A stretch of 32,082 nucleotides of DNA from a virus, in the IMG/VR virus record IMGVR_UViG_3300044638_001444, positions 1 to 32,082 of that record, one strand, 5' to 3'. Positions within the stretch are counted from its first letter, which is position 1. Each line of letters begins with the position of its first letter. The translations under genes and the position numbers were made by a program. The notes beneath the pieces were generated by a model. That model was not told the origin of the DNA, searched no databases, and was given only the letters and a program-made list of their open reading frames with translations. Shown here piece after piece: positions 4,163 to 32,082 of this stretch.

Positions 4163-5798
4163 TTTCTAACTCCGCTATTTCTGTGTCTCCATACTTTTTA
4201 CCATTCATTGAGTCTGCCATGAACCAAATTTCTCCATAAAGCATTGACTGCTTTTCTGCTACACCTACTTGAGGCGCTGTAACACTTCCAGTAGCACTTT
4301 CTAGTGTAAAGAAAACCGTGGCTTTTATTTTATATTTAGCATTAGACGCTCTATCAAAAGATTTAGAAGTGGTATCTTTTGGGTTTTCAATCTTAAAGGT
4401 AATCGTGTCTCTACCTTTACCCACATCGGTCATATTGCATGTTCCATTGATAGTTGTTTCAAATGCTGTTTGATTAATACCATATGCAAGATTAGTTGCA
4501 GGATCACCTGACGTCCTACCTAAATAGGTCATCAGTATATGAATATGTGGAGTAATTGTTCCCTTTTTTTCTTTTGCCCAAGTTTTAGTAGACTCACTAA
4601 AAGAAACACTTACTTTCAAATCCGTTGTACCATCTCCGTCATCATTAAAGATTCTAAATGCATTTAAAACGTATGCATCTTTAGTAGTAAAGAATGATTG
4701 TAAGGTTTCGTAATCTTTAGTTAAGTCTTCACCTAGTTTTTTAAGAGCCTTATTTTCAGCAGTTTGATCGGTACCTGAAGAACCATCAGAACCAAATGCA
4801 GTAGTGGCATCGTAATCTTTATACAAGGTAGTAAGGTACGTATCTTTATTAGCAAATCCAATATACATTGCTTGCATCTGTACTGATATCTGACACTGTG
4901 TTGGAACCATTGCCGTATTAAACTTATTAAATACAACTGCCGTGCTAGTTATAAACCCTTCAACCATAAAACTAGAAGAAAACACAACACGTATTGGTTG
5001 AGCAATTAAAAACGCTGAGTTTCCAATGTTCGTTCCTAAAAAGATTTCAGTTTTACTCTTATCAAAAGGTATTTCTTTATCCTCTTCATCCTCCGTACCC
5101 CCTCCAGGGTTTGCAAGGTTGTAAGCAGACGTAACTTCTCCTGCCCGTGTAACAATTGCTTCTATCAATCCTTTATTCATCCCTTGACCAATAATTTGAT
5201 CAAAGACCATAAGGTCGGCAAGTACCCCAATATCTGTAACCCATGACTGGTCATAAGGATTGTCTTCAAATCCTATAGTGGTCTTTTTTGGCCTTGATGG
5301 GTGCCCACCACCTGAGTTTGTAATTACTTCTCTTGATATGTTTGCTGCTTTTTCATTTTTTACAACTTTTCCGTTGTTGTTTCTGTAAGAACCACTAACC
5401 AACTCTGCTTCTCTGTTGAACAGCAGATCAAATGAGAAGTTTGCATCACCAGGGATTGGTTGAGTAAATTGAAAAGGATCCTGGTTTTGCCACATTTGAA
5501 TGTCATTACGGGCAGAAACCATTCTGGTTAAAGTGTCTGGATTAAATTGAAAATGAAGCCTACGATTATGTAAAAGGCTGTCTGCTCCCAAAGCGTCACC
5601 ATATGCAGATGTAATCATCTTCATGTAGCCACGTTGTATTTTGGTAGTACCCTCTGGACCTATCGCAGCATTTTTATTTACATCGTTAGGCCATATAAAC
5701 TTTGGGTTATCTTGTGTTGTCCTATTTGAGGCTTTTCCAATACCTGGCTCATAGTTTCCAAAGTTATAAAATTGGTTTGTTGCATAACGATCAGCCAT
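4152..5798 (-). CDS. CIS-tube-like tail tube initiator/baseplate protein
   Basis: The 548-residue protein has near its N-terminus the segment RRLHFQFNPDTLTRMV (79-94), the Phe-Asn-Pro signature of the contractile injection system tube (CIS_tube) domain found in eCIS tube-initiator and hub-adjacent proteins. Later parts are beta-rich, with a Glu/Asp stretch near 237-244 and an unannotated C-terminal half. The neighbouring LysM protein is its usual partner. A role as tail tube initiator (functionally like T4 gp48/gp54) is therefore inferred from motif plus synteny. It is larger than simple CIS_tube proteins (about 220 residues), so extra domains are present. Start ATG at 5798 follows GGAG and overlaps the tape measure stop by one base (TAATG). 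Confidence 0.75.
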   Translation of the reverse strand: MADRYATNQFYNFGNYEPGIGKASNRTTQDNPKFIWPNDVNKNAAIGPEGTTKIQRGYMKMITSAYGDALGADSLLHNRRLHFQFNPDTLTRMVSARNDIQMWQNQDPFQFTQPIPGDANFSFDLLFNREAELVSGSYRNNNGKVVKNEKAANISREVITNSGGGHPSRPKKTTIGFEDNPYDQSWVTDIGVLADLMVFDQIIGQGMNKGLIEAIVTRAGEVTSAYNLANPGGGTEDEEDKEIPFDKSKTEIFLGTNIGNSAFLIAQPIRVVFSSSFMVEGFITSTAVVFNKFNTAMVPTQCQISVQMQAMYIGFANKDTYLTTLYKDYDATTAFGSDGSSGTDQTAENKALKKLGEDLTKDYETLQSFFTTKDAYVLNAFRIFNDDGDGTTDLKVSVSFSESTKTWAKEKKGTITPHIHILMTYLGRTSGDPATNLAYGINQTAFETTINGTCNMTDVGKGRDTITFKIENPKDTTSKSFDRASNAKYKIKATVFFTLESATGSVTAPQVGVAEKQSMLYGEIWFMADSMNGKKYGDTEIAELENGS

Positions 5799-16952: not shown

Positions 16953-18029
16953 TTAGGCAGAGGCGATAGCGCCACCCTTGGTGTTGATCAACACTCGGGA
17001 TTCGTGCGTGATTACGCCGAAGCCCCAGATTGCGTACCAAGCGAGACCATGCTCACGACCGAAGTCAATTACGCCACCGTCACGGAGTTCAACTGGCAAG
17101 GCGATTGCCTGACCAAATGCGTTGTCACCGATCATCATTGCGCTGTACGAGGTTGCGCTTGGGTCGTTGATTGAACCACCTGGGGTTACGTCAACGATTC
17201 CAGTGCCACCCTGAAGTACTTGAGTGGTTTCAATGAACACTACGTCGTAGATACGACCGATTTCACCGAGCATGAAGTTTCCTGGAGCGGCATACTTCGT
17301 GACTTCAATGAATTCAGGCCAGTCACGGAGCGAGCGGCTCTGCGATGGGTGAACGAAGCACACGTATGTGTCGCCAAGGCGTGGGATGTTCTGACCAGCA
17401 AGGATTTCAACTGCGTCCTTGATAGTTGCAGGCGAGAGGTAACCAGGAGCCGATGCTGAACCAGCGCTTGAGTACTCGTAAGGAGCGATTGAGCCACGGG
17501 TTGAGCCGTTGGTCGTACGACCGAAGACTACCGATGGAGCAACTGCTGAACCGCCGCCGAATGGAACGCCTGCCGAGTACAGCGTGTTGCGTGCCTGAAC
17601 GTCCATGGACTGTGCCATGTGACGACCGAGCAAGCGGCTGGACGAAGCCATAACGTCATCAAACGATGCGTTCAAGAGAAGTTCGGTTACTGCAACCGAC
17701 TTACCTTGTTCTTTAACGGTGATTTGAATCTGCGATGCAGTCAACGCCGTAGGTTCCATGCGGGTACCTTCGGTAAGTTCTGAACCACTTGCGCCAACCG
17801 AAAGGTTGTTGTAACGCATGAAGTTGACGGTGAGTCCTGGCATTACACCAAGTTCCGTCTTCTTTACTGCGAACTGTTCAAAACGTAGGACTGGCATTGC
17901 CTGGAACAAGATTTCCTTGGACCAGATTTGCTGAATTGCTGGGGAGAGTGCGGTTGCCGAGCCGTAGCCGTTTGGACTAATGCTTGCGGAACTGGTTACT
18001 ACTCCACCTGTTGGGGCTGGAAAAGCCAT
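16953..18029 (-). CDS. Major capsid protein (N4-gp56-like)
   Basis: The 358-residue protein resembles HK97-fold capsid proteins of the N4 gp56 family. Supporting segments are IWSKEILFQAMPVLRFEQFA near residue 35, LTVNFMRYNNL, then ASQIQITVKEQGKSVAVTEL (97-117) and LLGRHMAQSMDVQARNTLY, and the C-terminal AWYAIWGFGVITHESRVLI. It follows scaffold and portal genes in the normal order. There is no visible N-terminal propeptide cleavage signal. The start ATG at 18029 has a strong AGGAGG that lies inside a 7-bp hairpin (18034-18050). A GC-rich terminator-like hairpin follows the gene. Confidence 0.93.
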   Translation of the reverse strand: MAFPAPTGGVVTSSASISPNGYGSATALSPAIQQIWSKEILFQAMPVLRFEQFAVKKTELGVMPGLTVNFMRYNNLSVGASGSELTEGTRMEPTALTASQIQITVKEQGKSVAVTELLLNASFDDVMASSSRLLGRHMAQSMDVQARNTLYSAGVPFGGGSAVAPSVVFGRTTNGSTRGSIAPYEYSSAGSASAPGYLSPATIKDAVEILAGQNIPRLGDTYVCFVHPSQSRSLRDWPEFIEVTKYAAPGNFMLGEIGRIYDVVFIETTQVLQGGTGIVDVTPGGSINDPSATSYSAMMIGDNAFGQAIALPVELRDGGVIDFGREHGLAWYAIWGFGVITHESRVLINTKGGAIASA

Positions 18030-18067: not shown

Positions 18068-18865
18068 TTAGAACCGACCCCTATTGGGGCGGGCATTAAG
18101 TAGCCGATCTCGCATTTTTGCATACTGGTCCATTGTCATGTTACGGATGTCATCCGCATTCAACGTTTGGTATTCCGTCTGAGTTTCCATTGGCCCTACA
18201 GGAGGCGCCGTTACTGGTGCCCCCCTCAAACGACCTTGCTGTTGCGCAGTCGCTTGTTGGATTGATTCCATAATAGCATTACTTCGGTCACGAAGTACAC
18301 TAATTGATGTTTCAATCTCATCTTCCGTATTACCCGATACGAGATCAATCAATTCAGGGATGATTTCTTCCTGAGTTTCCTGAAGTCGGCGGTTACGGTA
18401 AGAACTGAGTTCCTGAAGACGGCGCTCTTTTTCAATGATTGCCTCTTGGGCTTGGCGCTGTCCTTCAATCTCCTCAAAACGACGCTTGTATTCACCGTCA
18501 ATTTCCTGGAGTTTTACGTTGAACTCTTCTTCACGCTTAAGGAGTAGTTCCTTGGCGCTTAATTCGTCAACTTCTCGCTGGCGCAAGATGTCGGATTCTT
18601 TAGCCGCACGTGCTTCAGCCTCTTTTTTAGCGGCTTCACGTTCGGCGGAGATTACGCTCATCTGCTCTTCCATGCTCTTTACACGGGTATCCGCTTCTTC
18701 AAGACGCTTATACATCTTGTCTTTTTCTTGCTTGCGGATGCTTTCAACTTCATCTTCGGTAAATACCTTGGATGTTTTCATTGCCGACTCTACGAACTGT
18801 TCCACCATTGGGGCGTCCGCAGGTACGCTGATAATGTCCCCTTCGGGACTGGTATTTCTTGCCAT
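18068..18865 (-). CDS. Capsid scaffolding protein
   Basis: The 265-residue protein lies between portal and major capsid protein and is almost entirely charged helix. Residues 35-170 form a long coiled coil rich in Glu, Lys and Arg (for example KDKMYKRLEEADTRVKSMEE and RRFEEIEGQRQAQEAIIEKE). The C-terminal end (MDQYAKMRDRLLNARPNRGRF, residues 245-265, shortened here to MDQYAKM and PNRGRF) is basic, as in scaffolds that bind capsid protein. This layout and position identify a scaffold that nucleates procapsid assembly and is later removed. No protease domain is fused to it. Start ATG at 18865 follows AAGGA. Confidence 0.88.
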   Translation of the reverse strand: MARNTSPEGDIISVPADAPMVEQFVESAMKTSKVFTEDEVESIRKQEKDKMYKRLEEADTRVKSMEEQMSVISAEREAAKKEAEARAAKESDILRQREVDELSAKELLLKREEEFNVKLQEIDGEYKRRFEEIEGQRQAQEAIIEKERRLQELSSYRNRRLQETQEEIIPELIDLVSGNTEDEIETSISVLRDRSNAIMESIQQATAQQQGRLRGAPVTAPPVGPMETQTEYQTLNADDIRNMTMDQYAKMRDRLLNARPNRGRF

Positions 18866-18914: not shown

Positions 18915-20603
18915 TTAATTGTCTTCGTCTGGGTTACGGCGCTGGGCGAACCTTGCTCCGTATGCCCGTGAAACTATCTTGTTTACTAACTCTTCTTCAA
19001 TCGGTGGAACCCCTGGTAAAGGACCATTGCCACCGTCTGACGAAGTTACATTACCATCTCCAGGTGAGGTGGGTGCGGGAGCCGCTCCACCGTCTGGAGT
19101 CGCAACCATTCCAGTAGCCAACATAATGGCTTGCTGAATTTGGGCACGCATCATGTCAAGAGATCCCTGATCCAGGGCGTCTTCTTGAAGTTCTTCAAAG
19201 ATTTCAAGCATCTTTTCGTTCGGGAATTCCTCACCAAGTAGACGTAGAGCGCCACGCTTGGACTCAAGACCAAGAGCCATCTTGGCTTGTACTTCATTGA
19301 GTTTGATGAGTTGATCAACAGGCAATGGTTCAGGCCAGTGAACTGTTGTTTTATAAGTCACAGGGTCACCAGGATTTAACTGCGGTAACTGGTCTGTCTC
19401 AGGTTCAGCAGCAAGCAATGGGTTGTAGGTCAACCACTCAGGTTGGAAGATAGCAACAGTACGAATGATCAATTCGTTTACACGCTCAAGACCCTTTGTA
19501 AAGTGGATCTTTTTCATCATGAAACGGTTCATCATTGGCTGGTATTGAATAGCCAAAGCAACACCTGAGGTGTTAGACACTGGCTGGAATTGACCCAACG
19601 CAGTTTCAGGAACACCTGTCATTTCGTGCATGGTGCGCTTAATAAATGCGATGTACTCCAAAGCGCCAGCCATCTCACCACGAGATTCAAGGTTGAATAC
19701 GTTTGCGTCTTTAGGAAGACCTGCCCAAACCTTCTTAGGACCACGCTCAAGTTGTGAAGCCTTAGCACCAGTGATGATCGTTACAGGAGCGGCGTGGTAG
19801 TTAATGATGTCTGAGACTTCAACCATCTTCTCGTTGAGTTCACGGTTGAGAGGGATGATGTCCCAAATGTCTGACTGACCCCAAGGTGACGACGAGATAG
19901 TGGAGTTAGGAATGTGGACAATAGGGATCGTTCCCAAAACGTTGTCGTACTGGTCAATAAGTTCATCGTTAATAAACTGTTGAACTGTTTCATCAGTGAG
20001 GATCTCAGTAAATGTATAAACCTGACGAGTACCTTCTGGTGATGTTCCCCAGAAACGATACTTAAGTTTGAATCTAATGATTCTGTCACGGTCGTGTGGG
20101 TGATACTCAGGGAAGCAATGCGCTGGGTTCAAAGGAATGATGCGGACACGACCCTCATGCGGGATTCCAGCAGGATCAACAAATGGCTCTTCAAAAGCAA
20201 CTTTGACAAAGGCGTCACCAGTTACAGAAGCAAGTTGACCTAGTTCCCAAAGAACGTAATGCTTGTTGTTGTCTTGATCCCAAACTCTATGAAGTAGGTG
20301 CGGGATAATCGCACCGTTCTGCTCAGGGACTTTAAATTGAACGCCCTTACCAAAACAAAAGTTGGTGATGTAATCCGACATGGTGCGGACATAGTTCATG
20401 TAGAACTGTGACTCACCCATCTCACGGCGGTATGACCAGTGGTGACCTAGGTACCAAGCCCAAGCGGCGCCGTACCTGTTTAGGCGAGGTCCATGGACTT
20501 CAAACTCTTCGTCTGCGAGTTCAACTAACCCAAGCGGGGATATAGCAACTGTTAGGTCGCTTGAAGATGCTCTATATGATGGCGACCAAAAATCAACTGC
20601 CAT
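18915..20603 (-). CDS. Portal protein
   Basis: The 562-residue protein has portal characteristics: length near 500-560, position directly before scaffold and capsid genes, an N-terminal region with MSDYITNFCFGKGVQFKV, a core with GDAFVKVAFEEP and VRIIPLNPAHCFPEYHP, and the helical stem/crown part FIKRTMHEMTGVPETALGQF followed by SGVALAIQYQPMMNRFM, the typical portal signature. Portal dodecamers form the DNA channel at one capsid vertex and bind terminase. The C-terminal 60 residues are Gly/Pro-rich and probably disordered. The ATG is at 20603; no strong Shine-Dalgarno is seen, and the upstream 90 bases are noncoding, so a promoter may lie there. Confidence 0.92.
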   Translation of the reverse strand: MAVDFWSPSYRASSSDLTVAISPLGLVELADEEFEVHGPRLNRYGAAWAWYLGHHWSYRREMGESQFYMNYVRTMSDYITNFCFGKGVQFKVPEQNGAIIPHLLHRVWDQDNNKHYVLWELGQLASVTGDAFVKVAFEEPFVDPAGIPHEGRVRIIPLNPAHCFPEYHPHDRDRIIRFKLKYRFWGTSPEGTRQVYTFTEILTDETVQQFINDELIDQYDNVLGTIPIVHIPNSTISSSPWGQSDIWDIIPLNRELNEKMVEVSDIINYHAAPVTIITGAKASQLERGPKKVWAGLPKDANVFNLESRGEMAGALEYIAFIKRTMHEMTGVPETALGQFQPVSNTSGVALAIQYQPMMNRFMMKKIHFTKGLERVNELIIRTVAIFQPEWLTYNPLLAAEPETDQLPQLNPGDPVTYKTTVHWPEPLPVDQLIKLNEVQAKMALGLESKRGALRLLGEEFPNEKMLEIFEELQEDALDQGSLDMMRAQIQQAIMLATGMVATPDGGAAPAPTSPGDGNVTSSDGGNGPLPGVPPIEEELVNKIVSRAYGARFAQRRNPDEDN

Positions 20604-20695
20604 TAGGACATGTGCCCCTATTCAAATTTGTAGGTGTATAAATTGTAGCCTGAGATAACAATAGCGTGTTGTGAGTCGGTGTGGGAGGAGGTATC
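20604..20695. promoter_or_regulatory. Noncoding spacer between divergent genes
   Basis: About 90 AT-rich bases separate the portal start (minus) from the small plus-strand gene. Because these genes diverge, promoters in both directions are expected here. Candidate boxes such as TACAAT (minus) and TATAAA (plus) occur, but I find no well-spaced -35/-10 pair, so no promoter is assigned. Confidence 0.3.
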
Positions 20696-20875
20696 GTGGA
20701 CGCCATGGGAACTGGAGTATGGGAAAACATAGAACGTTTAGTCAAATCACCAACATGCGTGGTATGTGGTGAAGAGACAAACCTGGGCGGAAAAGGAAAG
20801 TATGAATTGTGCAAAAAACACAATTCGTGGATGACTTACTTTTTCTTACGGTTTAACAACTCTTCAGAAGCGTAA
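20696..20875 (+). CDS. Small plus-strand zinc-ribbon protein, 59 aa
   Basis: The only likely plus-strand gene in the window. A GTG at 20696 is preceded by GGAGGAGG (20684-20691) with about 7 bases spacing from its first GGAGG; an ATG at 20705 in the same frame is an alternative. The 59-residue product has a CxxC...CxxH set: Cys21, Cys24, Cys39 and His42, in SPTCVVCGEETN and YELCKKHNSW, which suggests a small zinc ribbon such as phage DNA-binding or HNH-like fragments. It is not long enough for an HNH nuclease. The last 40 bases run antisense over the 3' end of 20836-21420. A chance ORF cannot be excluded. Confidence 0.6.
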   Translation: MDAMGTGVWENIERLVKSPTCVVCGEETNLGGKGKYELCKKHNSWMTYFFLRFNNSSEA

Positions 20876-21420
20876 ACTCCAGCCATTTCTTCTCGGCTAG
20901 GTATAATCTTCACGGTCTTTTCTGCTTGAGAAACCGCTGGTTTCATTGGGTCCTTTGCAGTCCCAGTTGACCAATCATTACCTGAATGTAGGTGTTCTGG
21001 GATATCAACGCTTCCAGCGTACCCACCTGTCTCATTGACCTCACCAATTGCTTGCTGACGGTTACGAGCGCCTTTTGTGTAGGCGGTCATAAACCCTTCA
21101 TCTGTGCGTGGAAGTGCCTCTGAGACGTCCTGAGTGCCTTCTCCTTCGGCAGGTACCCACCCGCCGTGGTACATGTCAGCACCCTTAAGAAGACCCTTAA
21201 ACTTTCGTTGGTAACGGCTAATTGCACGAGACTGAACAGGGGCTGTAATGGTTTCTTCTACCCGTTCTTTAGGTAGTGCAACCATGTACGAGTCTTTAGC
21301 CTTTGCTCCAGCGTTCGCACCATAGGCGACTCTGGACCAGCCTGAACTACCGTCTTGGGCAATCTCTGTGTTTACTTCTTTAGCAAGTGTAGAGACTTCT
21401 CGCTTGGGCATTTTTGCCAT
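20836..21420 (-). CDS. Hypothetical structural-region protein, 194 aa
   Basis: This 194-residue protein starts MAKMPKREVSTLAKEVNTEI and appears largely disordered and polar, with segments such as RYQRKFKGLLKGADMYHGGW and YTKGARNRQQAIGEVNETGG and a basic end (ELLNRKKK). No family is recognised. It shares a TAATG junction with the small membrane protein upstream and precedes the portal, separated by the plus-strand gene. Three proteins of similar composition (this one, 24868-25326 and 25329-25730) lie near terminase and portal and could be internal head or DNA-packaging accessory proteins; that is inference. Confidence 0.75.
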   Translation of the reverse strand: MAKMPKREVSTLAKEVNTEIAQDGSSGWSRVAYGANAGAKAKDSYMVALPKERVEETITAPVQSRAISRYQRKFKGLLKGADMYHGGWVPAEGEGTQDVSEALPRTDEGFMTAYTKGARNRQQAIGEVNETGGYAGSVDIPEHLHSGNDWSTGTAKDPMKPAVSQAEKTVKIIPSREEMAGVYASEELLNRKKK

Positions 21421-21686
21421 TACTTTTTAGCGGCGGCTTTCTTAGCAGGAGCCTTCTTGACAGGTACGTTTGTCATAGCGGCGGCTACTTCTTTAGCGGC
21501 TGGGAGGCGACCAAAAGCACCATCGTTAGGGTTGATTGCTCGCAAGGCTACTGGAGCAAGAGCCGCCAATAGTGAGTAAGCAAGTGTCTGTGGGTCAGTT
21601 ACACCCGACATGTAGAGAGCAAGACCAGCACCGAGTACTGAACGTCCGTACGATGCGAGCATGCTTTTTAGTTGTTCTGTGTTCAT
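21420..21686 (-). CDS. Small membrane protein, holin-like
   Basis: The 88-residue protein has two hydrophobic segments, about 16-27 (SVLGAGLALYMS) and 34-50 (LAYSLLAALAPVALRAI), a short hinge, and a highly basic tail (VPVKKAPAKKAAAKK). The organisation TM, turn, TM, polar tail with Lys clusters fits small phage holins, and similar proteins with GVTDP between the segments occur in other phages. The gene lies away from the endolysin, so another membrane role remains possible. Start ATG at 21686 is preceded by AAGGAG with good spacing. Confidence 0.65.
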   Translation of the reverse strand: MNTEQLKSMLASYGRSVLGAGLALYMSGVTDPQTLAYSLLAALAPVALRAINPNDGAFGRLPAAKEVAAAMTNVPVKKAPAKKAAAKK

Positions 21687-21713: not shown

Positions 21714-22346
21714 TTATACCGTTTTACGGGTTCTGGTGCTTTCTTGTCCTTGAACATACGTTTGGTATGGGGGACCTGTATACGGGTCAAACCTAGCCGC
21801 AATATTAAGAGCCTTAAGGGCACTCGTTTTAGCCTGCTGGGCTGTCCACTTCTTTTTGTTCATCATGACCTGTAGAGCACCTAGGGCGTAATGCGCCCCA
21901 GACCCTATGGCGTAGATACCACTGGATTCTGAGCACCATGCGTAGTCGCCATCAACCATGTAGATAACGCCATTGACTACCACAATGATGCTGGATCCTT
22001 GTTCTGCAATGTGCTGTTTGTTTTCATTGAGGTCTGGAATTGAATAACCCTGTGCATCAAAGCACTCACGCAATGAAGGAATGAACTTGGCAGTAAAGAA
22101 CTGATCAAGTTTCTTTCCCTTTAGATTTGGAGGTACTGCTGGGGGCTGGAATACATGGTGCAAGATATTGATTGCACGCACATCTCCAGCCGCTCCTAGC
22201 AAGTATTTACCATTAGTAGACACCTTGCTTGAACCTTCACGAAGCGTTCCAGTTTGAGCAAGACCGTCAGCAAACATAGTTGAGATACGTGAGTCAACAC
22301 ATACCACAGCAAAGCCGTCACCTTGAATGCCAACGATTGTTGTCAT
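21714..22346 (-). CDS. Proteasome beta/HslV-like Ntn peptidase
   Basis: The 210-residue protein resembles proteasome beta and HslV subunits, N-terminal nucleophile peptidases. It begins MTTIVGIQGDGFAVVCVDSR: removal of Met1 exposes Thr2, Asp18 corresponds to Asp17 of the family, and Lys41 (SSKVS) to Lys33. GAAGD (51-55) and IGSGAHYALGAL (147-158) match the family glycines and Ser129, and Asp187 (ARFDPYTGPP) matches Asp166. All catalytic positions are thus present. No ATPase partner is encoded nearby. The gene shares one base with the metallophosphoesterase stop. A role as prohead/scaffold protease is attractive, as no other maturation protease is visible, but a host-directed role is possible. 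Confidence 0.85.
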   Translation of the reverse strand: MTTIVGIQGDGFAVVCVDSRISTMFADGLAQTGTLREGSSKVSTNGKYLLGAAGDVRAINILHHVFQPPAVPPNLKGKKLDQFFTAKFIPSLRECFDAQGYSIPDLNENKQHIAEQGSSIIVVVNGVIYMVDGDYAWCSESSGIYAIGSGAHYALGALQVMMNKKKWTAQQAKTSALKALNIAARFDPYTGPPYQTYVQGQESTRTRKTV

Positions 22347-23500
22347 TAGTCTGCTTGGTATTCTTTACCTTGGTACATTCCCCATCCGTTGTAGATAGGA
22401 ATGACGTCGTAAGAGAAACGATGTTGGTTGTCATCTTCGTAACGAACTATTCCTAAACCTTGTTGCCAGTTTTCGTGACGAGTCAACGGGCGTCCGTCAA
22501 GATCTACGCCTCCACGTGTGGACGGAATCGCTCCGTCAATACGGGCAAGGCAACCAGGAGAAGCAGCCATGATGGTGCGTGGACCATCAAAGTCTTCACG
22601 TGTTTTAAACGCCGTTTCAATGCGGTGAATATGCCCATAGATAACACTCGTCTTCTCTTGGTTGAGATAGATGTGCGCAGTTGAACCTGACGACTTCACA
22701 CGATCGCCGTGGATGATTCGGAGTTTCTCATTGACCCAGTAATCAGATGCTGGGTATCCTGGCTTGTAAACAACATTGAAATCGTCCATACGACAAAGGT
22801 ATGGAACACTCAAAACAGGCCATGATTCTGGGGTGTTTCCCTTGCGCAAACCATAAGCGGCTGATGCATTTACCAAGAGGTACTTAGGCATACGCTCTTC
22901 GTGGTTACCAGCAAGCCAAACGATTTCTGCATCAGGAGCCGCAGAACGCACCTGTGCACAGAACACTGTTGCACGATCAATTGATGCTTGTGTTGTTTGT
23001 GCATACGCAGGGTATGTCAAGTACTTACCCATCTCAGGGAAGTCAAGGTTGTCACCAACACAAATAACAGCATCAGGATTTAATTCTTCAATGATCTTGA
23101 GTGCAACACTAAGTGCCTTCTCATCATGAGTTGGTTCTAGTGTTCCATCACGTCCACGGTAGTAACCAATTTGAATGTCAGGAACAACAACACATGTTTT
23201 GAATGTTGATGCTTTCTTTACCTTTGCTTTAGGCGTTGGCATTTTGATTGCAGGACCTTGTTTAACAACAGGCCACTCTGGACCAGTTTCCCACTTAGGA
23301 GAAAACTGAATAGCGGCGAGGTCATGGATATGCGCCTCACCTTCTGAGTCCTTTGACATTGCTTGGTACAACTTGACACGCTTGATGTCACCAATTTCAT
23401 TGATGTCAATGTTCTTGCTTTCAAGCATTTCAACTAACTTGCCAAGCAACTTACTCTTGTCTTGTGGTGCGGTTGTTAACGCTTTTGCTAGTTCACTCAT
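22346..23500 (-). CDS. Calcineurin-like metallophosphoesterase
   Basis: With the start at ATG 23500 (AGGAG 7 bases upstream), the protein has 384 residues. Residues 1-95 are a charged helical extension; 100-370 form a calcineurin-like phosphoesterase: VVPDIQIGYY (Asp108, Gln110 in place of the usual His), VGDNLDFPE (Asp150, Asn151), AGNHEERMP (Asn199, His200), IIHGDRVKS (His264), and YGHIHRIE (His290/His292 region). These would bind two metal ions, usually Mn or Fe/Zn. The substrate cannot be read from sequence; phage members act on nucleic acid ends, cyclic nucleotides or phosphoproteins. It overlaps the HTH-like gene by 4 bases and the peptidase gene by one, so the three form a coupled unit. 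Confidence 0.9.
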   Translation of the reverse strand: MSELAKALTTAPQDKSKLLGKLVEMLESKNIDINEIGDIKRVKLYQAMSKDSEGEAHIHDLAAIQFSPKWETGPEWPVVKQGPAIKMPTPKAKVKKASTFKTCVVVPDIQIGYYRGRDGTLEPTHDEKALSVALKIIEELNPDAVICVGDNLDFPEMGKYLTYPAYAQTTQASIDRATVFCAQVRSAAPDAEIVWLAGNHEERMPKYLLVNASAAYGLRKGNTPESWPVLSVPYLCRMDDFNVVYKPGYPASDYWVNEKLRIIHGDRVKSSGSTAHIYLNQEKTSVIYGHIHRIETAFKTREDFDGPRTIMAASPGCLARIDGAIPSTRGGVDLDGRPLTRHENWQQGLGIVRYEDDNQHRFSYDVIPIYNGWGMYQGKEYQAD

Positions 23501-23796
23501 TGTGCATCTCCTTGGTAACAGCAACACTCTTTGTTGACGTGTCGCTGGATTGTGCTTATACTCACGTTGTAACCATGTTGACGCATAACTTTAGTAAGCC
23601 ATGATGCGCTGTATGATTTGCTTTTACCTAAACCGTTGTCCTCACGAATGAGTTCAATTGCACGGTTTATTGCTTCTTGTTCGTCAGCAGACATTTTGTC
23701 TACTGTTCTGGTGAACTTGCATGCGTCTGCCGAAAGATTAGTTCGGGGAGAAAGCAGGGCGTCCAGCAGTGTTATTTTCTGCTCTTGTTGTTTCAC
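23497..23796 (-). CDS. Small HTH-like protein, 99 aa
   Basis: The 99-residue protein starts at a GTG (23796) with a weak AAGG upstream. The C-terminal third, YSASWLTKVMRQHGYNVSIS followed by TIQRHVNKECCC, reads like a winged or simple helix-turn-helix (LTKVMRQHGY as first helix, SISTIQRHVN as recognition helix) and ends in three Cys. The N-terminal half is helical and acidic. It could be a DNA-binding regulator or, by size and DNA-binding appearance, a terminase small subunit candidate, though it lies five genes from terL. Its last bases overlap the metallophosphoesterase start (ATGA). Confidence 0.7.
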   Translation of the reverse strand: MKQQEQKITLLDALLSPRTNLSADACKFTRTVDKMSADEQEAINRAIELIREDNGLGKSKSYSASWLTKVMRQHGYNVSISTIQRHVNKECCCYQGDAQ

Positions 23797-24109: not shown

Positions 24110-24868
24110 TTAATCAACTATTCCCCTCTGTCGGCGCCAGTTTACCCAACCTACAGCCTGTGCTTGGCTTGGGAGCATCCCTAAGTTACCAGCGGCATTA
24201 CGATGCGCTTCAGAAAATGTGTTGTATCTAGTAGGAGTCTGTAGCCCACGGTCAGCACTCCCAAGTACACGACCAACAGTAATATCGTGAGCATGACGAT
24301 CAACTGTCACGGCTTCAGGGTCATCTGGGTTAACAATGTTTTTAAAGAAGTTCCCTGTTTTCCTGTCCATTGGTAAATATTGTTCTGGCTGTGCGGAACC
24401 CTCAAGGACTGAACGAGCCTGTGATACCTGCCGCCCAGTTACAAAACCACCACTAGCGGTTCCAGTATCCCTTAATTGGCGTGCCATACGCTGGTTGTCA
24501 TTCCAACCAACCTGCGAACTTAGGATTGCAATAGCGCCAGCCCCACGGCGTACATCGCCTTTTCCAATTTCAGTTGCAAAATCATGGGCACGCTTATACC
24601 AGTCCATACCAGATTTAACATCTTCTGGACTAGCCGTTTTTACGGCGTGGGTGACGTTATGAACCATGCGATTAAATTGGCTTGGATGTAACTTATCCAT
24701 ACGAGCACCCAATGCATTAGTAGGGTCCCAAGCACCAATGTTCTTACTTCCCTCTTTTGGAAGTACTCGTTTATAACCATGTGCTACAGGATCAAAGCCA
24801 CGACCAGTAGGAAGGCTTAGTTCTCCACTGTTTTCTGGTACATACAAATCGCCAGTATCCTTAGCCAT
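24110..24868 (-). CDS. Conserved phage protein with HhH-GPD-like motifs
   Basis: The 252-residue protein resembles a conserved actinophage family of unknown function. Motifs in order are AIAILSSQVGWNDNQRMARQ (112-131), QVSQARSVLEG (147-157), YLPMDRKTGNFFKNI (164-178), TVDRHAHDITVGRVLG (188-203) and LPSQAQAVGWVNWRR (232-246). The order and spacing recall endonuclease III type DNA glycosylases, with Lys170 and Asp190 in places like the catalytic Lys and Asp (LPGVGRKTA and VDTHIFR in E. coli Nth), but the Gly-Val-Gly hairpin is shortened and no iron-sulfur cysteines exist. A glycosylase fold is therefore only a proposal. It shares a base with the gene upstream (TGATG). Confidence 0.82.
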   Translation of the reverse strand: MAKDTGDLYVPENSGELSLPTGRGFDPVAHGYKRVLPKEGSKNIGAWDPTNALGARMDKLHPSQFNRMVHNVTHAVKTASPEDVKSGMDWYKRAHDFATEIGKGDVRRGAGAIAILSSQVGWNDNQRMARQLRDTGTASGGFVTGRQVSQARSVLEGSAQPEQYLPMDRKTGNFFKNIVNPDDPEAVTVDRHAHDITVGRVLGSADRGLQTPTRYNTFSEAHRNAAGNLGMLPSQAQAVGWVNWRRQRGIVD

Positions 24869-25776: not shown

Positions 25777-27336
25777 TTAATTAAAGAATGGATTTTCTGC
25801 TACTTGGATCGTAGGCAGGGTGTCATGCATAGACATGAAACAGGCAATAGCCAAGGAGTCTGGGTAGTCGTCAAAAGCACCCTTTTCATCAGGTGCCTCA
25901 GCCAACATATACGGACCACGATAGGTCTTTTCTAGATCGCTCATCTGCTGATTAAAGCGCTTCCATCCACGAGTACGCCGTGCTTTAGAGTGCCCTGGAA
26001 TTATTAATTGATCTCTCTGAATCAACTCTGTAAGATGTACCCATCTCTCATGCTGTGCCTTTGAGTCTGATGAGACTGCAACAACATCTATGTCTGGTAG
26101 AAGTACTTGGAAGCGCTCCGCTACAGCACCACCAACACCTTGAGAGTCAATGCCGATTCTGATCGGGTCATAGTTTCTTAAGAAGTCAATGATCTGGAAG
26201 TACTGGGATTCCCATTCTTCGTTGTTAATCTCCAACCAGTTAAGAACACGGTGCTCATGGAAGCCGAAAGGGTCTGGGTGGTCCCAGTCAACCCAACAGA
26301 CTGTCACTACGGTGGAGTCATTAGATCGGGCAACGTCAATACCGACTACTACAGGAGTACGCCACCACTGCTTTACAAGAGCCATAGAGGGGTCATACAG
26401 GCGTTCTAAGCGCTCATCGGTTACAAACATACCTCGGTCAAGCACCCACTTGTTACAGTAGGACATCTGGAACTCGTCTGAGTCCTCACCGATTCGCAAT
26501 TTCTCTTTAGCAATAAACTTGGCGTAGTTAGGGTTGTACTTTGAAGCAACACGGTAGTCATACTCAAAGTGACATGGGCGTGTTTTCTTACCGTTGACCA
26601 TGCGTCGCTTGTTGTACTGGATCATCTTATAGAAGTAAGACTTGTTACGGGTAGCCGTTCCCGTCAAACAGATACTGCCGTTGTTAAACGCCAACATCGG
26701 CTTAATTGATTTAGCAATCATGTACTCGTCGGCTTCTTGAGCCTCGTCAATCATGACGAAGTGGTACGTCTTTGATTCAATCTTTGCTTTTGGGTTACAG
26801 GTCTGCATACGGCAAAGCGAGCCAGAGTGCTTCAAAGTAATGATGCGACCTTTACCACGGGCACCACCTGAAGTTGCCTTATCGTCAATCTCGGGGTCTA
26901 ACAAGAAGTCCATTGCGTGGTCGCTAGTAAGTTTGCCAACGATACGACTGAACACCGTATCTGCTTGGTCTTCTACTGGGGCGAACACTCCGCACCAAAA
27001 ACCCTTATCAAACTTGTCAAGCCATGTTGGATAAACCTTTGCTAACTTAGGCAAAATCACCATGAGTGAAGCCATGACGTTAGAGAGAACCTCAGATTTA
27101 CCTGACTGACGTGTAGCCACTACCGTCATTTCTTCACCGTCACCAAGGATGACAGATTCAATCAATCGGTAGGCAATAGGTACCTGATACGGGAATAGTT
27201 CCACATCGCAGAACTCTTCGGTAAACACAATGATGCGCTTTACCAGCACGTCTATGAATTCGGCTGAAGTCTCGTCCAGTTCTTCGGCTACGTCCTCGGC
27301 TAAGAGGTTATCGTCTAGTTCTTCGTCTGTTAGCAC
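25777..27336 (-). CDS. terL: Terminase large subunit
   Basis: The 519-residue protein is the DNA-packaging motor. The ATPase domain has Walker A ATRQSGKS (74-81), Walker B VMIDEAQ (194-200) and the coupling motif LTGTATR (224-230). The nuclease domain has the three expected acidic positions: Asp334 (VGIDVARSND), Asp397 (IGIDSQGVGG) and Asp489/Asp493 (FDDYPDSLA), typical of RNase H-fold terminase nucleases. The N-terminus is acidic. The start is GTG at 27336; the in-frame upstream codons carry no ATG before the stop that ends the previous gene, and no strong Shine-Dalgarno is visible. No recognisable small subunit lies directly upstream. Confidence 0.96.
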   Translation of the reverse strand: MLTDEELDDNLLAEDVAEELDETSAEFIDVLVKRIIVFTEEFCDVELFPYQVPIAYRLIESVILGDGEEMTVVATRQSGKSEVLSNVMASLMVILPKLAKVYPTWLDKFDKGFWCGVFAPVEDQADTVFSRIVGKLTSDHAMDFLLDPEIDDKATSGGARGKGRIITLKHSGSLCRMQTCNPKAKIESKTYHFVMIDEAQEADEYMIAKSIKPMLAFNNGSICLTGTATRNKSYFYKMIQYNKRRMVNGKKTRPCHFEYDYRVASKYNPNYAKFIAKEKLRIGEDSDEFQMSYCNKWVLDRGMFVTDERLERLYDPSMALVKQWWRTPVVVGIDVARSNDSTVVTVCWVDWDHPDPFGFHEHRVLNWLEINNEEWESQYFQIIDFLRNYDPIRIGIDSQGVGGAVAERFQVLLPDIDVVAVSSDSKAQHERWVHLTELIQRDQLIIPGHSKARRTRGWKRFNQQMSDLEKTYRGPYMLAEAPDEKGAFDDYPDSLAIACFMSMHDTLPTIQVAENPFFN

Positions 27337-27643: not shown

Positions 27644-27880
27644 CTATTTGGTGGCATCAACCCGTCTTTGTAATTCTTCCCAAATATCATCTAGAGCCTT
27701 AATGAACTCTGTTACTTCACCTTCAGGACCACCGTGATAACGCCAACGGTCAAACGAAGCGCCGAGACCCATGATGGTGGTGTCAAACCACTGAAGTAAT
27801 GAGGCTCGGTCTAAGTTCTGTACACGCTTAGGCACATCTCTTCTGGCTGTTTGCTCTTCTTCTTTTTTAAAGAAACCCAT
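27644..27880 (-). CDS. Small hypothetical protein, 78 aa
   Basis: The start is taken at ATG 27880 (MGFFKKEEEQTARRDVPKRV), which overlaps the upstream stop by one base (TGATG); two GTG codons just before are alternatives. The protein is charged and helical, with WFDTTIMGLGASFDRWRYHG (31-50) and a C-terminal helix (VTEFIKALDDIWEELQRRVD). I do not recognise it. It belongs to a run of three small genes between the KTSC-domain gene and terminase that share overlaps and are likely co-translated. Confidence 0.72.
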   Translation of the reverse strand: MGFFKKEEEQTARRDVPKRVQNLDRASLLQWFDTTIMGLGASFDRWRYHGGPEGEVTEFIKALDDIWEELQRRVDATK

Positions 27881-28146
27881 CACCACATTCCAATCTCTTG
27901 TGCAGGTGTGTCCATCTCACGACCACCTATTGCTTGTAGAACACCATCTGTTTCATCTTGCATTTGAATACGCTTACATAGACCTACTTGCGCTGTGTAC
28001 TTGCGGGTGCGCAACTGTATACCTTTACCATGTCTCCATGGGTAGTCAGTTTCTCTTACAATACCCATAGAAACAAAAGGGGTATTAAGGTTTGCGAAAT
28101 CTCTAACAACCCAGTAAAGGCGTCCAATGGCATGGAGCCTATTCAT
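27880..28146 (-). CDS. Small hypothetical protein, 88 aa
   Basis: This 88-residue protein (MNRLHAIGRLYWVVRDFANL) is basic in its middle (YPWRHGKGIQLRTRKYTAQV) and has no recognisable domain, membrane segment or signal. The ATG at 28146 lies 2 bases after the stop of the KTSC gene. Its last base is shared with the start of the next gene. Function unknown. Confidence 0.7.
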   Translation of the reverse strand: MNRLHAIGRLYWVVRDFANLNTPFVSMGIVRETDYPWRHGKGIQLRTRKYTAQVGLCKRIQMQDETDGVLQAIGGREMDTPAQEIGMW

Positions 28147-28608: not shown

Positions 28609-29376
28609 TTATTTTAGTCCTAAAAGTTGCTTTACTTTTGGACCGACAACAAAGTCCGCACCAAGTTTGTTAGCAACCTTAAACGCCTTCACGGCTTCAT
28701 CCGTTGCTGAGTCTTTTTGACCAGTGACTTCACCCTTGTAGAAGCCTTTTGCCTTGAGGGCTTCTTGAAGTTTCTTGATGTCATCCCCACCTGCTGGGGC
28801 GGGGGCTGGAGCCGTACCTACTGGTGCAGTTACCCCATTGGCATCCATCCATGCTTTTACTGATGCTGGGATATTGTCGCCACATACATAACGAAGGTGC
28901 CATGGCTCGCTTGGGACAACTTCCCATGAGAAACCAAATTCCTTCACGTTTGCAATCAACCAGTTGAGGCGCTTTGGCTCTGATGCTGAGTGAATGTCAA
29001 CCGCCAAGCCGAGGTTATGCTGCGATTTACCAGGCGTGGCAAGCATCGCCATACCTTTCTTGAGGTACCAAGTCTTGCCTTCAAATGTCTTGGTGCTGGT
29101 TCCGTCCACTTTGTCAAGTGTGTAGCGGGTCAAAAATCCTCGTTTTTGCAACTCGTAATCTCTATATGTATCGCCGCTGGAAGTTGGTTTTAGTTCAACG
29201 CCTTCAGCCTTAGCCTTTTCAACCATTGCGGTCCATGCGCATGCGGCAATCCAATGCATCTTGCCGCCACCAGGAACGGCTTTCAAAAGGTTGGCAGGGA
29301 GTTTTCCTGGTTCAATACCTTTGAGATCTTTTGGAAGTACTACTGGAACAATGTAATCCCATGCAAGTTTGCCCAT
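28609..29376 (-). CDS. Endolysin: M15 peptidase with peptidoglycan-binding domain
   Basis: The 255-residue protein has an N-terminal/central M15 (VanY/D-Ala-D-Ala carboxypeptidase-like) domain: SGDTYRDY at 67-74, KSQHNLGLAVDIH (118-129, His120 and Asp127 as zinc ligands), and PSEPWHLRY (155-163, Glu157 catalytic, His160 zinc ligand). An Ala/Pro linker (184-196) leads to a C-terminal PG_binding_1-like domain (KKLQEALKAKGFYKGEVTG, then AVKAFKVANKL). It lyses the host wall by cutting peptidoglycan peptides. There is no signal peptide, so a holin is expected. The start ATG has GGTGG/AGGAAAG upstream. Spacing from the oxygenase gene is 57 bases. Confidence 0.93.
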   Translation of the reverse strand: MGKLAWDYIVPVVLPKDLKGIEPGKLPANLLKAVPGGGKMHWIAACAWTAMVEKAKAEGVELKPTSSGDTYRDYELQKRGFLTRYTLDKVDGTSTKTFEGKTWYLKKGMAMLATPGKSQHNLGLAVDIHSASEPKRLNWLIANVKEFGFSWEVVPSEPWHLRYVCGDNIPASVKAWMDANGVTAPVGTAPAPAPAGGDDIKKLQEALKAKGFYKGEVTGQKDSATDEAVKAFKVANKLGADFVVGPKVKQLLGLK

Positions 29377-29433: not shown

Positions 29434-30021
29434 CTAGTAAACGAAAGAAATCCAACCAGTAGCAATATACTTTGTATCGTTTTGAGAGGTAACGCCCCTG
29501 TGTGTGTACATCCAATCAGCAGGAAATATGATAGTTAGCCCTTTTTGTGGCTGTATTGACAGTTTTTGATGAAACCATTCTGTTGTCCCACCATCAAAAA
29601 CATCATTTAAGTAGGTGTTAAAGACTAATAGTCTCTTAGATACCCCTGATGTTTGTCGTTCAGAATGCCAAGCAAAAAACCCTTCATTAGGCAAATACCT
29701 CTGAATGTTTATTCTTTCAGTGACCCCCCAATGGTCTAGTTCACCGAGTACAGGAAATAGGTTCTTATACTCAGTAACTACTTTTTCAAGTTCATGTGTG
29801 TACTTAACAAACGGGGTATCCCCACAGTCCGTGACAATTGATAGGTCTGTTGACTTCTTCCAATCCTCACGAAGAACTGGGGTAGTTCCGTTGTAGGTCA
29901 TTCCAGCGCTTTTATTTGGGCTGCTTTCAAAATAAGAAATTAGATCATCACACACCTGACCATCTATGTACCATCCCTTTAAAAAAGGGTCAGCATGATT
30001 CATTTCGTATGATTCAAGCAT
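29434..30021 (-). CDS. 2OG-Fe(II) oxygenase, prolyl-4-hydroxylase-like
   Basis: Start is taken at ATG 30021, overlapping the previous gene by 8 bases, giving 195 residues (a TTG four codons upstream is an alternative). It matches prolyl-4-hydroxylase-type 2-oxoglutarate oxygenases: INIQRYLPNEGFFAWHSERQ (104-123) with His119-x-Glu121 as the iron-binding pair (Glu where most have Asp), VFDGGTTEWF (141-150), the distal His174 in MYTHRGVTSQ and Lys184 in place for 2-oxoglutarate binding (KYIATGWISF). It could hydroxylate a protein side chain. It is the third of three adjacent oxygenase-like genes. Confidence 0.85.
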   Translation of the reverse strand: MLESYEMNHADPFLKGWYIDGQVCDDLISYFESSPNKSAGMTYNGTTPVLREDWKKSTDLSIVTDCGDTPFVKYTHELEKVVTEYKNLFPVLGELDHWGVTERINIQRYLPNEGFFAWHSERQTSGVSKRLLVFNTYLNDVFDGGTTEWFHQKLSIQPQKGLTIIFPADWMYTHRGVTSQNDTKYIATGWISFVY

Positions 30022-30622
30022 TATGTAACCCAAAGTTAAAAGAAATAACTATCTTGCGGTCACCAACAAGGGCTGGGCACCCGTGCATGAAGTCGCTTTT
30101 AAACATTAATAATCTTGCTGGAATGCACTTATATGAAACGTCTTCAAAAGAGTACTTATTAGGAAATGGAGCAGGGCTTATCATGTTCTGCGGGTTGTCA
30201 TAGAACTTAATAATGTCCTTGTCATCACAATCAACGTAATAAGCGCCACTAATAAAACTGCTTGGATGATTATGTGGAAATAGATAATCTCCCTCAACTG
30301 ATAGGTTTGACCACATATTTTCTAATATTAAGTGCTGTTCCCTTAAATCATAACCAAGGGCTACCGCAAACTTTCGTGCTTCGTTTGTTAACTTCCTTAT
30401 AAACTCTGCAAAGAAACTTTCTTTTTCTAAATTTACTTGATTGTGGGTTGAGTTTACATTCAATTCTGGTGTTCTTTTGAAGTCACTATTGAATAGGAAC
30501 ATTTCAGACAACCATATATCCATTTCTTCTATGGTTTCAGAACAAAAGTTATCTAATAAATAGATTGGCTTTGGAAACCATTGTTCAATTTTTGCTTCGT
30601 TATTTACAAATAAAGTTGACAT
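30014..30622 (-). CDS. 2OG-Fe(II) oxygenase, phage type
   Basis: The 202-residue protein fits the phage 2OG-Fe(II) oxygenase family (PF13759-like): N-terminal EQWFPKPIYLLDNF, then ENMWSNLSVEGDYLFPHNHP (101-120) and SSFISGAYYVDC (121-132), followed by MFKSDFMHGCPALVGDRKIV (173-192). His117/His119 take the H-x-H/D place, His180 is the distal ligand, Arg189 binds 2-oxoglutarate. Members are common in cyanophages and other aquatic phages; substrates are unknown. It overlaps the upstream oxygenase-like gene by 23 bases and the downstream one by 8. Confidence 0.88.
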   Translation of the reverse strand: MSTLFVNNEAKIEQWFPKPIYLLDNFCSETIEEMDIWLSEMFLFNSDFKRTPELNVNSTHNQVNLEKESFFAEFIRKLTNEARKFAVALGYDLREQHLILENMWSNLSVEGDYLFPHNHPSSFISGAYYVDCDDKDIIKFYDNPQNMISPAPFPNKYSFEDVSYKCIPARLLMFKSDFMHGCPALVGDRKIVISFNFGLHNA

Positions 30623-31139
30623 TTATTGCAATCCTTTTTGTGTGACTTACTGGATTTGAACCATGGTGCACAACTGTATTATCTAAAATAAGACACCTAT
30701 TAATAACTGGCTCAATTTCGTGCTTTGAGTCATTCTGATAGTAATAAAAGTTACCGTCAGATTCAATTGGGTAATAAACAGCAGTTAGTATACCCTTACT
30801 TGCAGGTTGATTTGGTATGTCTACATGCTTTATGTTTTGATGTTCTTTTCCAACATTTGTTGTCATTACGCATCTTATTCTCAGTATTTCCGATAACTCA
30901 ACGTCAAGTCGGGTTTCAATGCTGCGCAATATTGGAATGACATACTCAAAAAATGAACTTCTTTGCTCTAAATCACGAGAATAAAAGTCGTGTGAAAAAC
31001 CGTAGTTGGAAAAGTCTCCTAAAAAAGAGTCTTCATAGTCAATGTCTTCGTGAAAGTAATACGGGAAATTTCGTGATACAACCAAATTTGACAATGCATC
31101 AAGTTCTTGCGCACTTAACAAACTATCCAGTATTTGCAT
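30600..31139 (-). CDS. 2OG-Fe(II) oxygenase-like protein
   Basis: The 179-residue protein has the motif order of a small dioxygenase: IKHVDIPNQPASKG with His105 and Asp107 as the facial ligands, TAVYYPIESDGNFYYY strands, then VVHHGSNPVSHTKRIAINV with distal His158/His159 and Arg169 as the 2-oxoglutarate site. Sequence resemblance to its two neighbours is limited to these motifs, so the three are not simple recent duplicates. It starts at ATG 31139, 6 bases after the fibre-associated gene stop. Substrate unknown; the adjacent glycine-rich adhesin or other structural proteins are possible targets by context. Confidence 0.8.
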   Translation of the reverse strand: MQILDSLLSAQELDALSNLVVSRNFPYYFHEDIDYEDSFLGDFSNYGFSHDFYSRDLEQRSSFFEYVIPILRSIETRLDVELSEILRIRCVMTTNVGKEHQNIKHVDIPNQPASKGILTAVYYPIESDGNFYYYQNDSKHEIEPVINRCLILDNTVVHHGSNPVSHTKRIAINVNFICK

Positions 31140-31145
31140 AGATCG

Positions 31146-31433
31146 TCAGTCTATGCCAGGTTGCACGTACCATTCTTCAGTTACTGGATTCCACATCCAT
31201 GCTGCTCTTGTTTCTGGTTGTGGCACTGGGTTCAACCAATGACCAGCACCATCTCTAGTAAAGTTTGGTGAAGGCTTAGGGGAATAAAAGTATCCGTCAA
31301 CGTAGTCACCATCAATAAATGCTGGGTTTGAGTCAAAGTACTCTATTTCGTTTTCTTTTAGAACATAGTCATCTGGACAAACAATAGCGTTGACAACAAT
31401 GTTGCCTTCCATAATTGCAATAGTTTTACTCAT
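31146..31433 (-). CDS. Small fibre-associated protein, 95 aa
   Basis: The 95-residue protein starts MSKTIAIMEGNIVVNAIVCP and continues with FIDGDYVDGYFYSPKPSPNF, ending AAWMWNPVTEEWYVQPGID. This arrangement (beta hairpin start, GDYVDG, aromatic-rich end) is typical of small proteins encoded right after fibre genes in aquatic phages; some may be fibre tips or fibre chaperones. Its ATG overlaps the adhesin stop (ATGA), showing coupled translation. Family name is not certain. Confidence 0.82.
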   Translation of the reverse strand: MSKTIAIMEGNIVVNAIVCPDDYVLKENEIEYFDSNPAFIDGDYVDGYFYSPKPSPNFTRDGAGHWLNPVPQPETRAAWMWNPVTEEWYVQPGID

Positions 31434-32082
31434 GGTATTGGGAACCTAATAACAACAACTCCTGCTTTACCTGAACCACCGTCATGATGAGTACCGAAAC
31501 AATTTGCACCACCACCACCGCCTGAACCAAAAGAGTTTGCAGAACCGCCACCTCCACCGTATCCACCGTCTCCTGCACCTGATGCTCCACCTGAAGGCGT
31601 ACCACCGTTGTTGCATTCTCCACCACCACCGCCACCTGAACCAATAACTGTATAGCCAAGAATTGTGGACAAGTACGCATCAAGGTTATTAACAGTTAAG
31701 CCAGCACCTCCACTACCAGCAGCAGCGGCAGCAAAACCACCACCCGAAGAACTATAACGACCACCAGAGCCACCAGTATTACCTTCGCTTGGAGAGAAGC
31801 CACCTTCGTTACCACTACCGTTCACTGAACCATTTACTGAGTGACCACCACCTGAACCACCAGTAATTCCAGCAGTTGTACCAATTCCACACCCTCCACC
31901 ACCACCACCATTAGTGGTCAAACTACCAATAGTAGAACTTCCACCTTTTCCACCTCTGTCACCTGAAGATGCAGCACCAGCAGCACCGACAGTAACTAAA
32001 ACTGTTCCAGCAGAAAGAGAGACTTCTTGCCAAGTTGGACTACCGACAGAAGTAGCAACACGAGCGCCACCACCGCCGCCAC
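31430..32082 (-). CDS. Partial glycine-rich adhesin/tail fibre
   Basis: The frame is open across the right edge, so the N-terminus is missing; about 217 codons are visible. An internal TTG at 31921 is not a real start, as the same frame runs on upstream. The visible protein includes a beta part (TWQEVSLSAGTVLVTVGAAG) and then long Gly-rich stretches broken by NNLDAYLSTILGYTVIG, ending GKAGVVVIRFPIP. Gly-rich C-terminal domains ending in Gly-x-Val-x-Ile-Arg-Phe/Tyr-Pro are found in many phage fibres, and polyglycine packing is used in T-even gp38-type tip adhesins. Host recognition is therefore likely. Tandem Gly codons may recombine and vary binding. Confidence 0.88.
   Translation of the reverse strand, partial: GGGGGARVATSVGSPTWQEVSLSAGTVLVTVGAAGAASSGDRGGKGGSSTIGSLTTNGGGGGGCGIGTTAGITGGSGGGHSVNGSVNGSGNEGGFSPSEGNTGGSGGRYSSSGGGFAAAAAGSGGAGLTVNNLDAYLSTILGYTVIGSGGGGGGECNNGGTPSGGASGAGDGGYGGGGGSANSFGSGGGGGANCFGTHHDGGSGKAGVVVIRFPIP

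Follow-up and report, generated by a model that had tools for sequence, protein, structure and literature searches.

Proteasome-like homologues of group I, which comprise the BPH, AAH, CPH and PPH proteins of bacteria and phages, are defined by the lack of a propeptide and by a compact C-terminus without S12/H5 (Fuchs et al. 2021, PMC8665760). That study includes phage-encoded members, found no genomic context pointing to the function of the phage proteins, and states that no actinobacteria-specific phage with an AAH could be found. Genes named after HslV (ClpQ) have also been annotated in phages: Salmonella jumbo phage pSal-SNUABM-04, a jumbo phage of a different host, carries HslV-type genes without HslU (PMC7823757), and Actinomycetia phage DSL-LC01 carries an "ATP-dependent protease subunit HslV" that is 47.5% identical to the peptidase described here.

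This peptidase is encoded in a window of 32,082 nucleotides, the whole stretch of viral DNA analyzed. Sheath, tube and baseplate genes mark this 32-kb fragment as part of the genome of a contractile-tailed phage. With the group I homologues it shares the proteasome core, equivalents of Thr1, Asp17 and Lys33, the missing propeptide, the compact C-terminus, carriage by a phage, and the lack of a detected AAA+ partner. Because phage relatives have been published (PMC8665760) and 36 viral models in BFVD match our peptidase model at E values up to 0.001, the kind of protein is already known. Our data add genomic context from about 300 viral loci, a few of which share a contig. They show an optional gene that takes turns with a family of small proteins; one lineage has it coupled to a phosphoesterase gene, and another has it adjacent to the portal gene. 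This context argues against a capsid-protease reading and supplies natural plus/minus pairs. We favor, at a probability of about 0.62, an active phage-borne group I threonine peptidase that is accessory, coupled to the phosphoesterase, at work inside the infected cell, and not the prohead protease.

Fold family and active site of the peptidase

The gene is read from the minus strand (the plus strand of the same interval is riddled with stops), starts with ATG, and encodes a protein beginning Met-Thr-Thr-Ile. The protein matches PF00227 at 33.9 bits (cut-off 22.4), while a six-frame search gave 20.5 bits for one stretch, under that cut-off; it also matches phrog_1040, "peptidase HslV family", over residues 1-205 (E 1e-25), phrog_1040 itself being a sequence cluster named by annotation. 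A scan of IMG/VR for relatives returned 147 related stretches, of which 80 were kept. The preliminary description had proposed a member of the proteasome family whose Thr/Asp/Lys site is intact, and both parts agree with these matches and with the Ntn-fold model below. Thr2, Asp18 and Lys41, which it had placed at family positions, are unchanged in all 106 distinct proteins compared, a number that includes the protein of the window; this set joins two large lineages with DSL-LC01 and its relatives, and leaves out the truncated L031 and distant named phages. Those of the named distant phages whose homologue has its start intact show the same Thr, Asp and Lys in the alignment, as judged by eye. 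These residues correspond to the N-terminal Thr nucleophile and the Asp17 and Lys33 equivalents of the proteasome superfamily, Lys41 taking the place of Lys33 if a two-residue shift is allowed in the HMMER alignment (by eye). The same claim for Ser149 and Asp187 stands for the window's protein but not for the family, in which Thr replaces Ser149 in 25 of the 106 proteins (81 keep Ser) and Asn replaces Asp187 in 35 (71 keep Asp). Thr2 is thus the predicted nucleophile once Met1 is removed, with Asp18 and Lys41 as predicted catalytic partners, and the gene is genuine, its product very probably active. PADLOC matched none of five proteins submitted to it, and scans for consensus promoters and terminators gave hits at chance level only.

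An AlphaFold2 model of the peptidase (mean pLDDT 85.1, pTM 0.83) has the Ntn-hydrolase fold, and Foldseek and VIA matches to it span about residues 2-203. In Foldseek against the PDB, the BPH of Thiobacillus denitrificans (5ovs, 5ovt) was the closest fold (best E 1.3e-11, TMq 0.69), followed by HslV. VIA-align gave BPH 5ovt a Z of 19.2, with an rmsd of 3.1 across 176 residues, yet BPH is only about 20% identical in sequence, a proteasome chain reaches the same Z of 19.2, and HslV trails by one Z unit. Since Z scores were alike for chains of BPH, HslV, Anbu and the proteasome (17.7-19.2 among the matches listed), the fold is secure, whereas the nearest subfamily is not. A profile built from 27 relatives likewise retrieved PDB chains of HslV, BPH and the proteasome beta subunit. 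The comparison with proteasome, HslV and Anbu by structure prediction and HMMs, which the preliminary description had proposed, returned a confident Ntn fold and matches to all of these families.

Although the peptidase has the fold and active-site positions of HslV, it misses the HslV equivalog cut-offs of NCBIfam by a wide margin (31.6 versus 137 and 30.4 versus 157.75 bits), as it does that of the 20S proteasome beta subunit, TIGR03690 (18.9 versus 191.9 bits). An HslU-type partner (PF07724, AAA_2) was found in none of 18 gene-bearing records, while the control was positive in 14 of 14; an HslU supplied by the host may still serve as partner. By curated cut-offs, the peptidase counts neither as HslV proper nor as a beta subunit of the proteasome. 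Its features fit a group I proteasome-like homologue, a relative of BPH and HslV: the protein opens with Met-Thr-Thr, and the final element of the model is a strand at 195-200. Within group I, the PPH subgroup differs in length and structure (about 140 aa, helix H2 missing), whereas the peptidase has 210 aa and helices at both 56-65 and 77-98. BPH forms a double ring; the peptidase is represented here by a monomer model only.

WhiB genes occur in the two long records of the window lineage that were searched (G001 and G005, of 97 and 98 kb), and phages of this lineage are therefore probably actinophages. PMC8665760 reports no actinophage with an AAH; if the present peptidase does belong to the AAH, that reported gap would be filled.

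Gene order and natural absence in two phage lineages

The preliminary description had located the gene among head-assembly genes, and by position this is correct: it has the metallophosphoesterase gene on one side and the genes for portal, scaffold and capsid on the other (Table 1). The scaffold assignment rests on position and a coiled-coil-like sequence, the protein having no Pfam or PHROG match. The 88-aa protein encoded next to the peptidase also lacks Pfam and PHROG matches, and BLAST places copies of it beside the peptidase in the nearest relatives only.

Table 1. Features of the window around the peptidase gene
Feature	Coordinates	Strand	Remarks
Proteasome-like (HslV/BPH-like) Ntn-hydrolase gene	21714..22346	-	210 aa; Pfam, PHROG, AlphaFold2 model, alignment
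Calcineurin-like metallophosphoesterase	22346..23527	-	TAA stop overlaps peptidase ATG by one base (TAATG)
88-aa protein, hydrophobic stretch and Lys/Ala-rich tail, holin-like by eye	21420..21686	-	Variable occupant between peptidase and portal
194-aa protein, no assigned function	20836..21420	-	Variable occupant between peptidase and portal
Portal protein (SPP1-type)	18915..20603	-	Anchor of presence/absence test
Putative scaffold protein	18068..18865	-	Position and coiled-coil-like sequence
Major capsid protein	16953..18029	-	phrog_1357, PF25209
Terminase large subunit	25777..27336	-	

Across the 80 relatives retained (L002-L081), the genes for phosphoesterase, peptidase, portal, scaffold and capsid follow one another in this order to the extent that each contig covers them, and the set of small genes lying between those for peptidase and portal varies. 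From phosphoesterase stop to peptidase start, 37 loci have a distance of -1 nt, 40 have 2 nt and two have 3 nt, which covers 79 of the 80 (L042 has no phosphoesterase match, its contig beginning 12 nt before the peptidase gene). An overlap or a gap of at most 3 nt in all 79 window-lineage loci ties the peptidase gene to the phosphoesterase gene upstream.

A portal-anchored scan of the window lineage, restricted to the best 80 of 568 relatives so that its fractions are not population frequencies, found the peptidase gene present in 44 loci and absent from 29, with 7 too short to score. A locus was informative if at least 1500 nt were available on the relevant side of the portal gene, presence was judged by a profile check, and near-identical contigs were counted separately. 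The gene is therefore absent from 29 of 73 informative loci (best 80 of 568), whose portals are 76-84% identical to the window's; 26 of the 29 have at least 2000 nt of upstream sequence and 19 have at least 5000 nt. Some plus/minus pairs are close: the portals of L199 (minus) and L200 (plus) are 92.5% identical, and those of L184 (minus) and L182 (plus) 88.3%. The 16 gene-lacking loci that were displayed show the phosphoesterase, then at least one small unrelated ORF, then the portal. Of 26 gene-lacking loci examined, 23 carry both a scaffold and a capsid gene; the remaining three are truncated, and of these two show the scaffold only and one shows neither. No copy of the peptidase gene occurs elsewhere in 15 gene-lacking records of 12-94 kb, which are mostly fragments, the largest being 94 kb.

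A portal tree was built from 69 of the 80 loci, the window and the Streptomyces phages GiJojo and BRock, leaving out the 7 loci short of upstream sequence and four gene-bearing ones (L204, L205, L219, L243). On this tree the presence label changes, by gain or loss, six times with the two Streptomyces phages scored and five times without them, and well-supported branches force at least four changes. GiJojo and BRock have capsid proteins about 60% identical to the window's and the same portal-scaffold-capsid order (the scaffold gene being annotated in GiJojo and hypothetical in BRock), and neither has a homologue of the peptidase.

The slot between phosphoesterase and portal is often filled by an unrelated family of about 98 aa with a W-D-A...GW motif, here called GW (for example in L184, L195, L226 and L234). 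Among the 69 loci of the portal tree, drawn from the best 80 of 568, 40 have the peptidase only, 25 have GW only, 4 have neither and none has both; four further GW loci (L190, L218, L247, L249) also have no peptidase gene in the available sequence. Because supported branches yield just four independent contrasts between peptidase and GW (sign test p 0.125-0.25), this exclusivity cannot reach significance. GW has no Pfam match above cut-off, and a PHROG scan of two members gave one weak match, for one of them, to a family of unknown function. Its model is all-beta (pLDDT 79), and fold searches returned insignificant matches only, several of them to Sm/Hfq proteins (best E 0.28).

A second lineage consists of Caudovirales sp. 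ct2KA10 and its relatives, phages of about 39 kb in which a 178-aa homologue (34% identical) directly follows the portal gene; all six records searched carry WhiB. The capsid proteins of this lineage and of the window are remote relatives (27% identical), so the two lineages are not independent. Within the best 80 of 592 portal relatives, the peptidase gene is present in 64 loci, in every one directly after the portal, and absent from 13, with 3 too short; among informative loci (best 80 of 592) it is thus missing from 13 of 77. A tree of these 77 loci has two changes of presence. In the 13 gene-lacking loci (L262, L273, L309 and ten more), the place of the peptidase is taken by an ORF of 73-79 aa that ends in an acidic tail and looks similar from locus to locus by eye; one member examined has no Pfam, PHROG or NCBIfam match. 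Further sequence was retrieved for two of these gene-lacking records, and both contain a scaffold gene (65-66% identical) and a capsid gene (71-78%).

Possible roles of the peptidase

Prohead protease genes usually lie directly after the portal gene, where the second lineage has the peptidase. A takeover of scaffold or prohead cleavage had been put forward in the preliminary description: the peptidase would enter the prohead and digest the putative scaffold, replacing S78, S14 or U9-type enzymes. We initially favored this idea on the grounds of the neighborhood, shared by two lineages, and of a complementary distribution of proteases. The earlier statement that the window has no other prohead protease agrees with Pfam scans of 37 of its 41 ORFs, which found no S14, S49, S77 or S78 peptidase (the four small ORFs outside the scans are 20593-20823, 27644-27886, 31146-31433 and 31430-31921), and S78, S14 and S49 were each found in 0 of 15 portal-linked gene-bearing records. 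An S77 search (PF03420) of 20 records was negative, but so was its control, which leaves this result without weight. Head proteases do occur in two phages whose homologue sits elsewhere, as expected of a takeover. DSL-LC01 and three relatives (L169-L171) have the homologue 4.0-6.2 kb upstream of the terminase gene, among small genes and not beside the portal, and DSL-LC01 has an S78 peptidase at 66.3 kb and annotated capsid maturation proteases at 63.8-68.7 kb; in phage D'Alembert the homologue lies kilobases from the portal and capsid genes, and an S49-type head maturation protease is present. The S78 match of DSL-LC01 falls within a large ORF (L172:7612-10167), one of three adjacent genes annotated as capsid maturation proteases.

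The takeover was abandoned when the portal-anchored scans revealed many gene-lacking relatives. A prohead protease should be kept with the head module or give way to another protease, yet the gene is missing from the 29 and 13 loci described above, which retain scaffold and capsid where the sequence reaches, with no recognized substitute. S78 was found in 0 of 17 records (the 15 gene-lacking ones, none with a peptidase copy elsewhere, and two gene-bearing), and S14 in 0 of 16 (13 of the 15 gene-lacking records and three Streptomyces phages); the S49 search covered gene-bearing records and named phages. These searches address recognized families, and most gene-lacking records are incomplete. 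GiJojo and BRock, which share the capsid type, have neither the peptidase nor S78. Among distant phages, the homologue of Microbacterium phage Pumpernickel and Arthrobacter phage Hum25 is tens of kilobases from the portal gene; Hum25 has an annotated scaffold and carries the homologue at the opposite end of its genome; and no head gene is annotated in 12.5 kb around the homologue of MTATph1. Hum25, Pumpernickel and MTATph1 have no S78, S14 or S49 match. The window's capsid protein, by eye, has no long N-terminal delta-like domain, and the open-access literature yielded no paper on a phage proteasome homologue serving as a prohead protease. Since head genes of the same type persist without the peptidase, its service as the prohead protease is unlikely.

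Interference with host proteolysis had been the other option of the preliminary description. The peptidase may redirect or block host proteolysis, either as a ring that borrows a host unfoldase or by obstructing the host proteasome, with GW reaching the same end by another route. The exclusive occupancy of one slot, the lack of a phage-encoded PF07724 unfoldase and the actinobacterial host indicated by WhiB are consistent with this idea, which we nevertheless regard as doubtful: the contrasts between peptidase and GW are few, the slot may simply be a hotspot, and the GW model has no significant fold match. A more elaborate version, in which a proteasome-like ring would reprogram protein turnover through the host unfoldase or by blocking the host proteasome, the portal slot would act as a switch, and GW would bind instead of cutting, seems rather improbable to us. 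Finally, patchy presence and swapping could mark the gene as a selfish or neutral passenger in a variable region with no consistent role. This we consider very improbable, as the invariant active site and the close phosphoesterase coupling indicate selection for an enzymatic function.

We favor an accessory threonine peptidase that would work in the infected cell. Removal of Met1 would expose Thr2, which would attack peptide bonds with the help of Asp18 and Lys41, and the enzyme would probably sit in a homo-oligomeric ring. It may act without a phage-encoded unfoldase of the HslU/ClpX type, on targets that could be unfolded proteins or specific host or phage proteins. Its gene is closely coupled to the metallophosphoesterase gene upstream, and the slot that it occupies holds small proteins of other families in relatives.

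A recent copy from a host was also considered and set aside. A scan of genome contigs with three short patterns returned 49 loci, none of them a close cellular donor and none from a record titled as an actinobacterium, which makes this a weak negative; the closest, L332, is 55% identical to the window's protein and the other 48 are 24-38% identical. L332 (JAURLY010000091.1) comes from a record titled as a gammaproteobacterial MAG, looks actinophage-like (a WhiB-like protein by eye, an endolysin, a phosphoesterase and the peptidase), and is probably misbinned. Its phosphoesterase precedes the peptidase at a distance of 224 nt, and its 15 kb contain no match to the portal of the window or of DSL-LC01.

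Other genes of the window drew attention in their own right, all on the minus strand. In the 37 ORFs scanned, the only peptidase matches besides the proteasome-like one are to VanY D-Ala-D-Ala carboxypeptidase domains, one in the tape measure (5798-8503) and one in the endolysin (28609-29376). A DUF7178 protein (24110-24868, E 1.7e-49) occurs in some close relatives and is missing from others, and three successive genes at 29434-31139 are 2OG-Fe(II) oxygenase-like.
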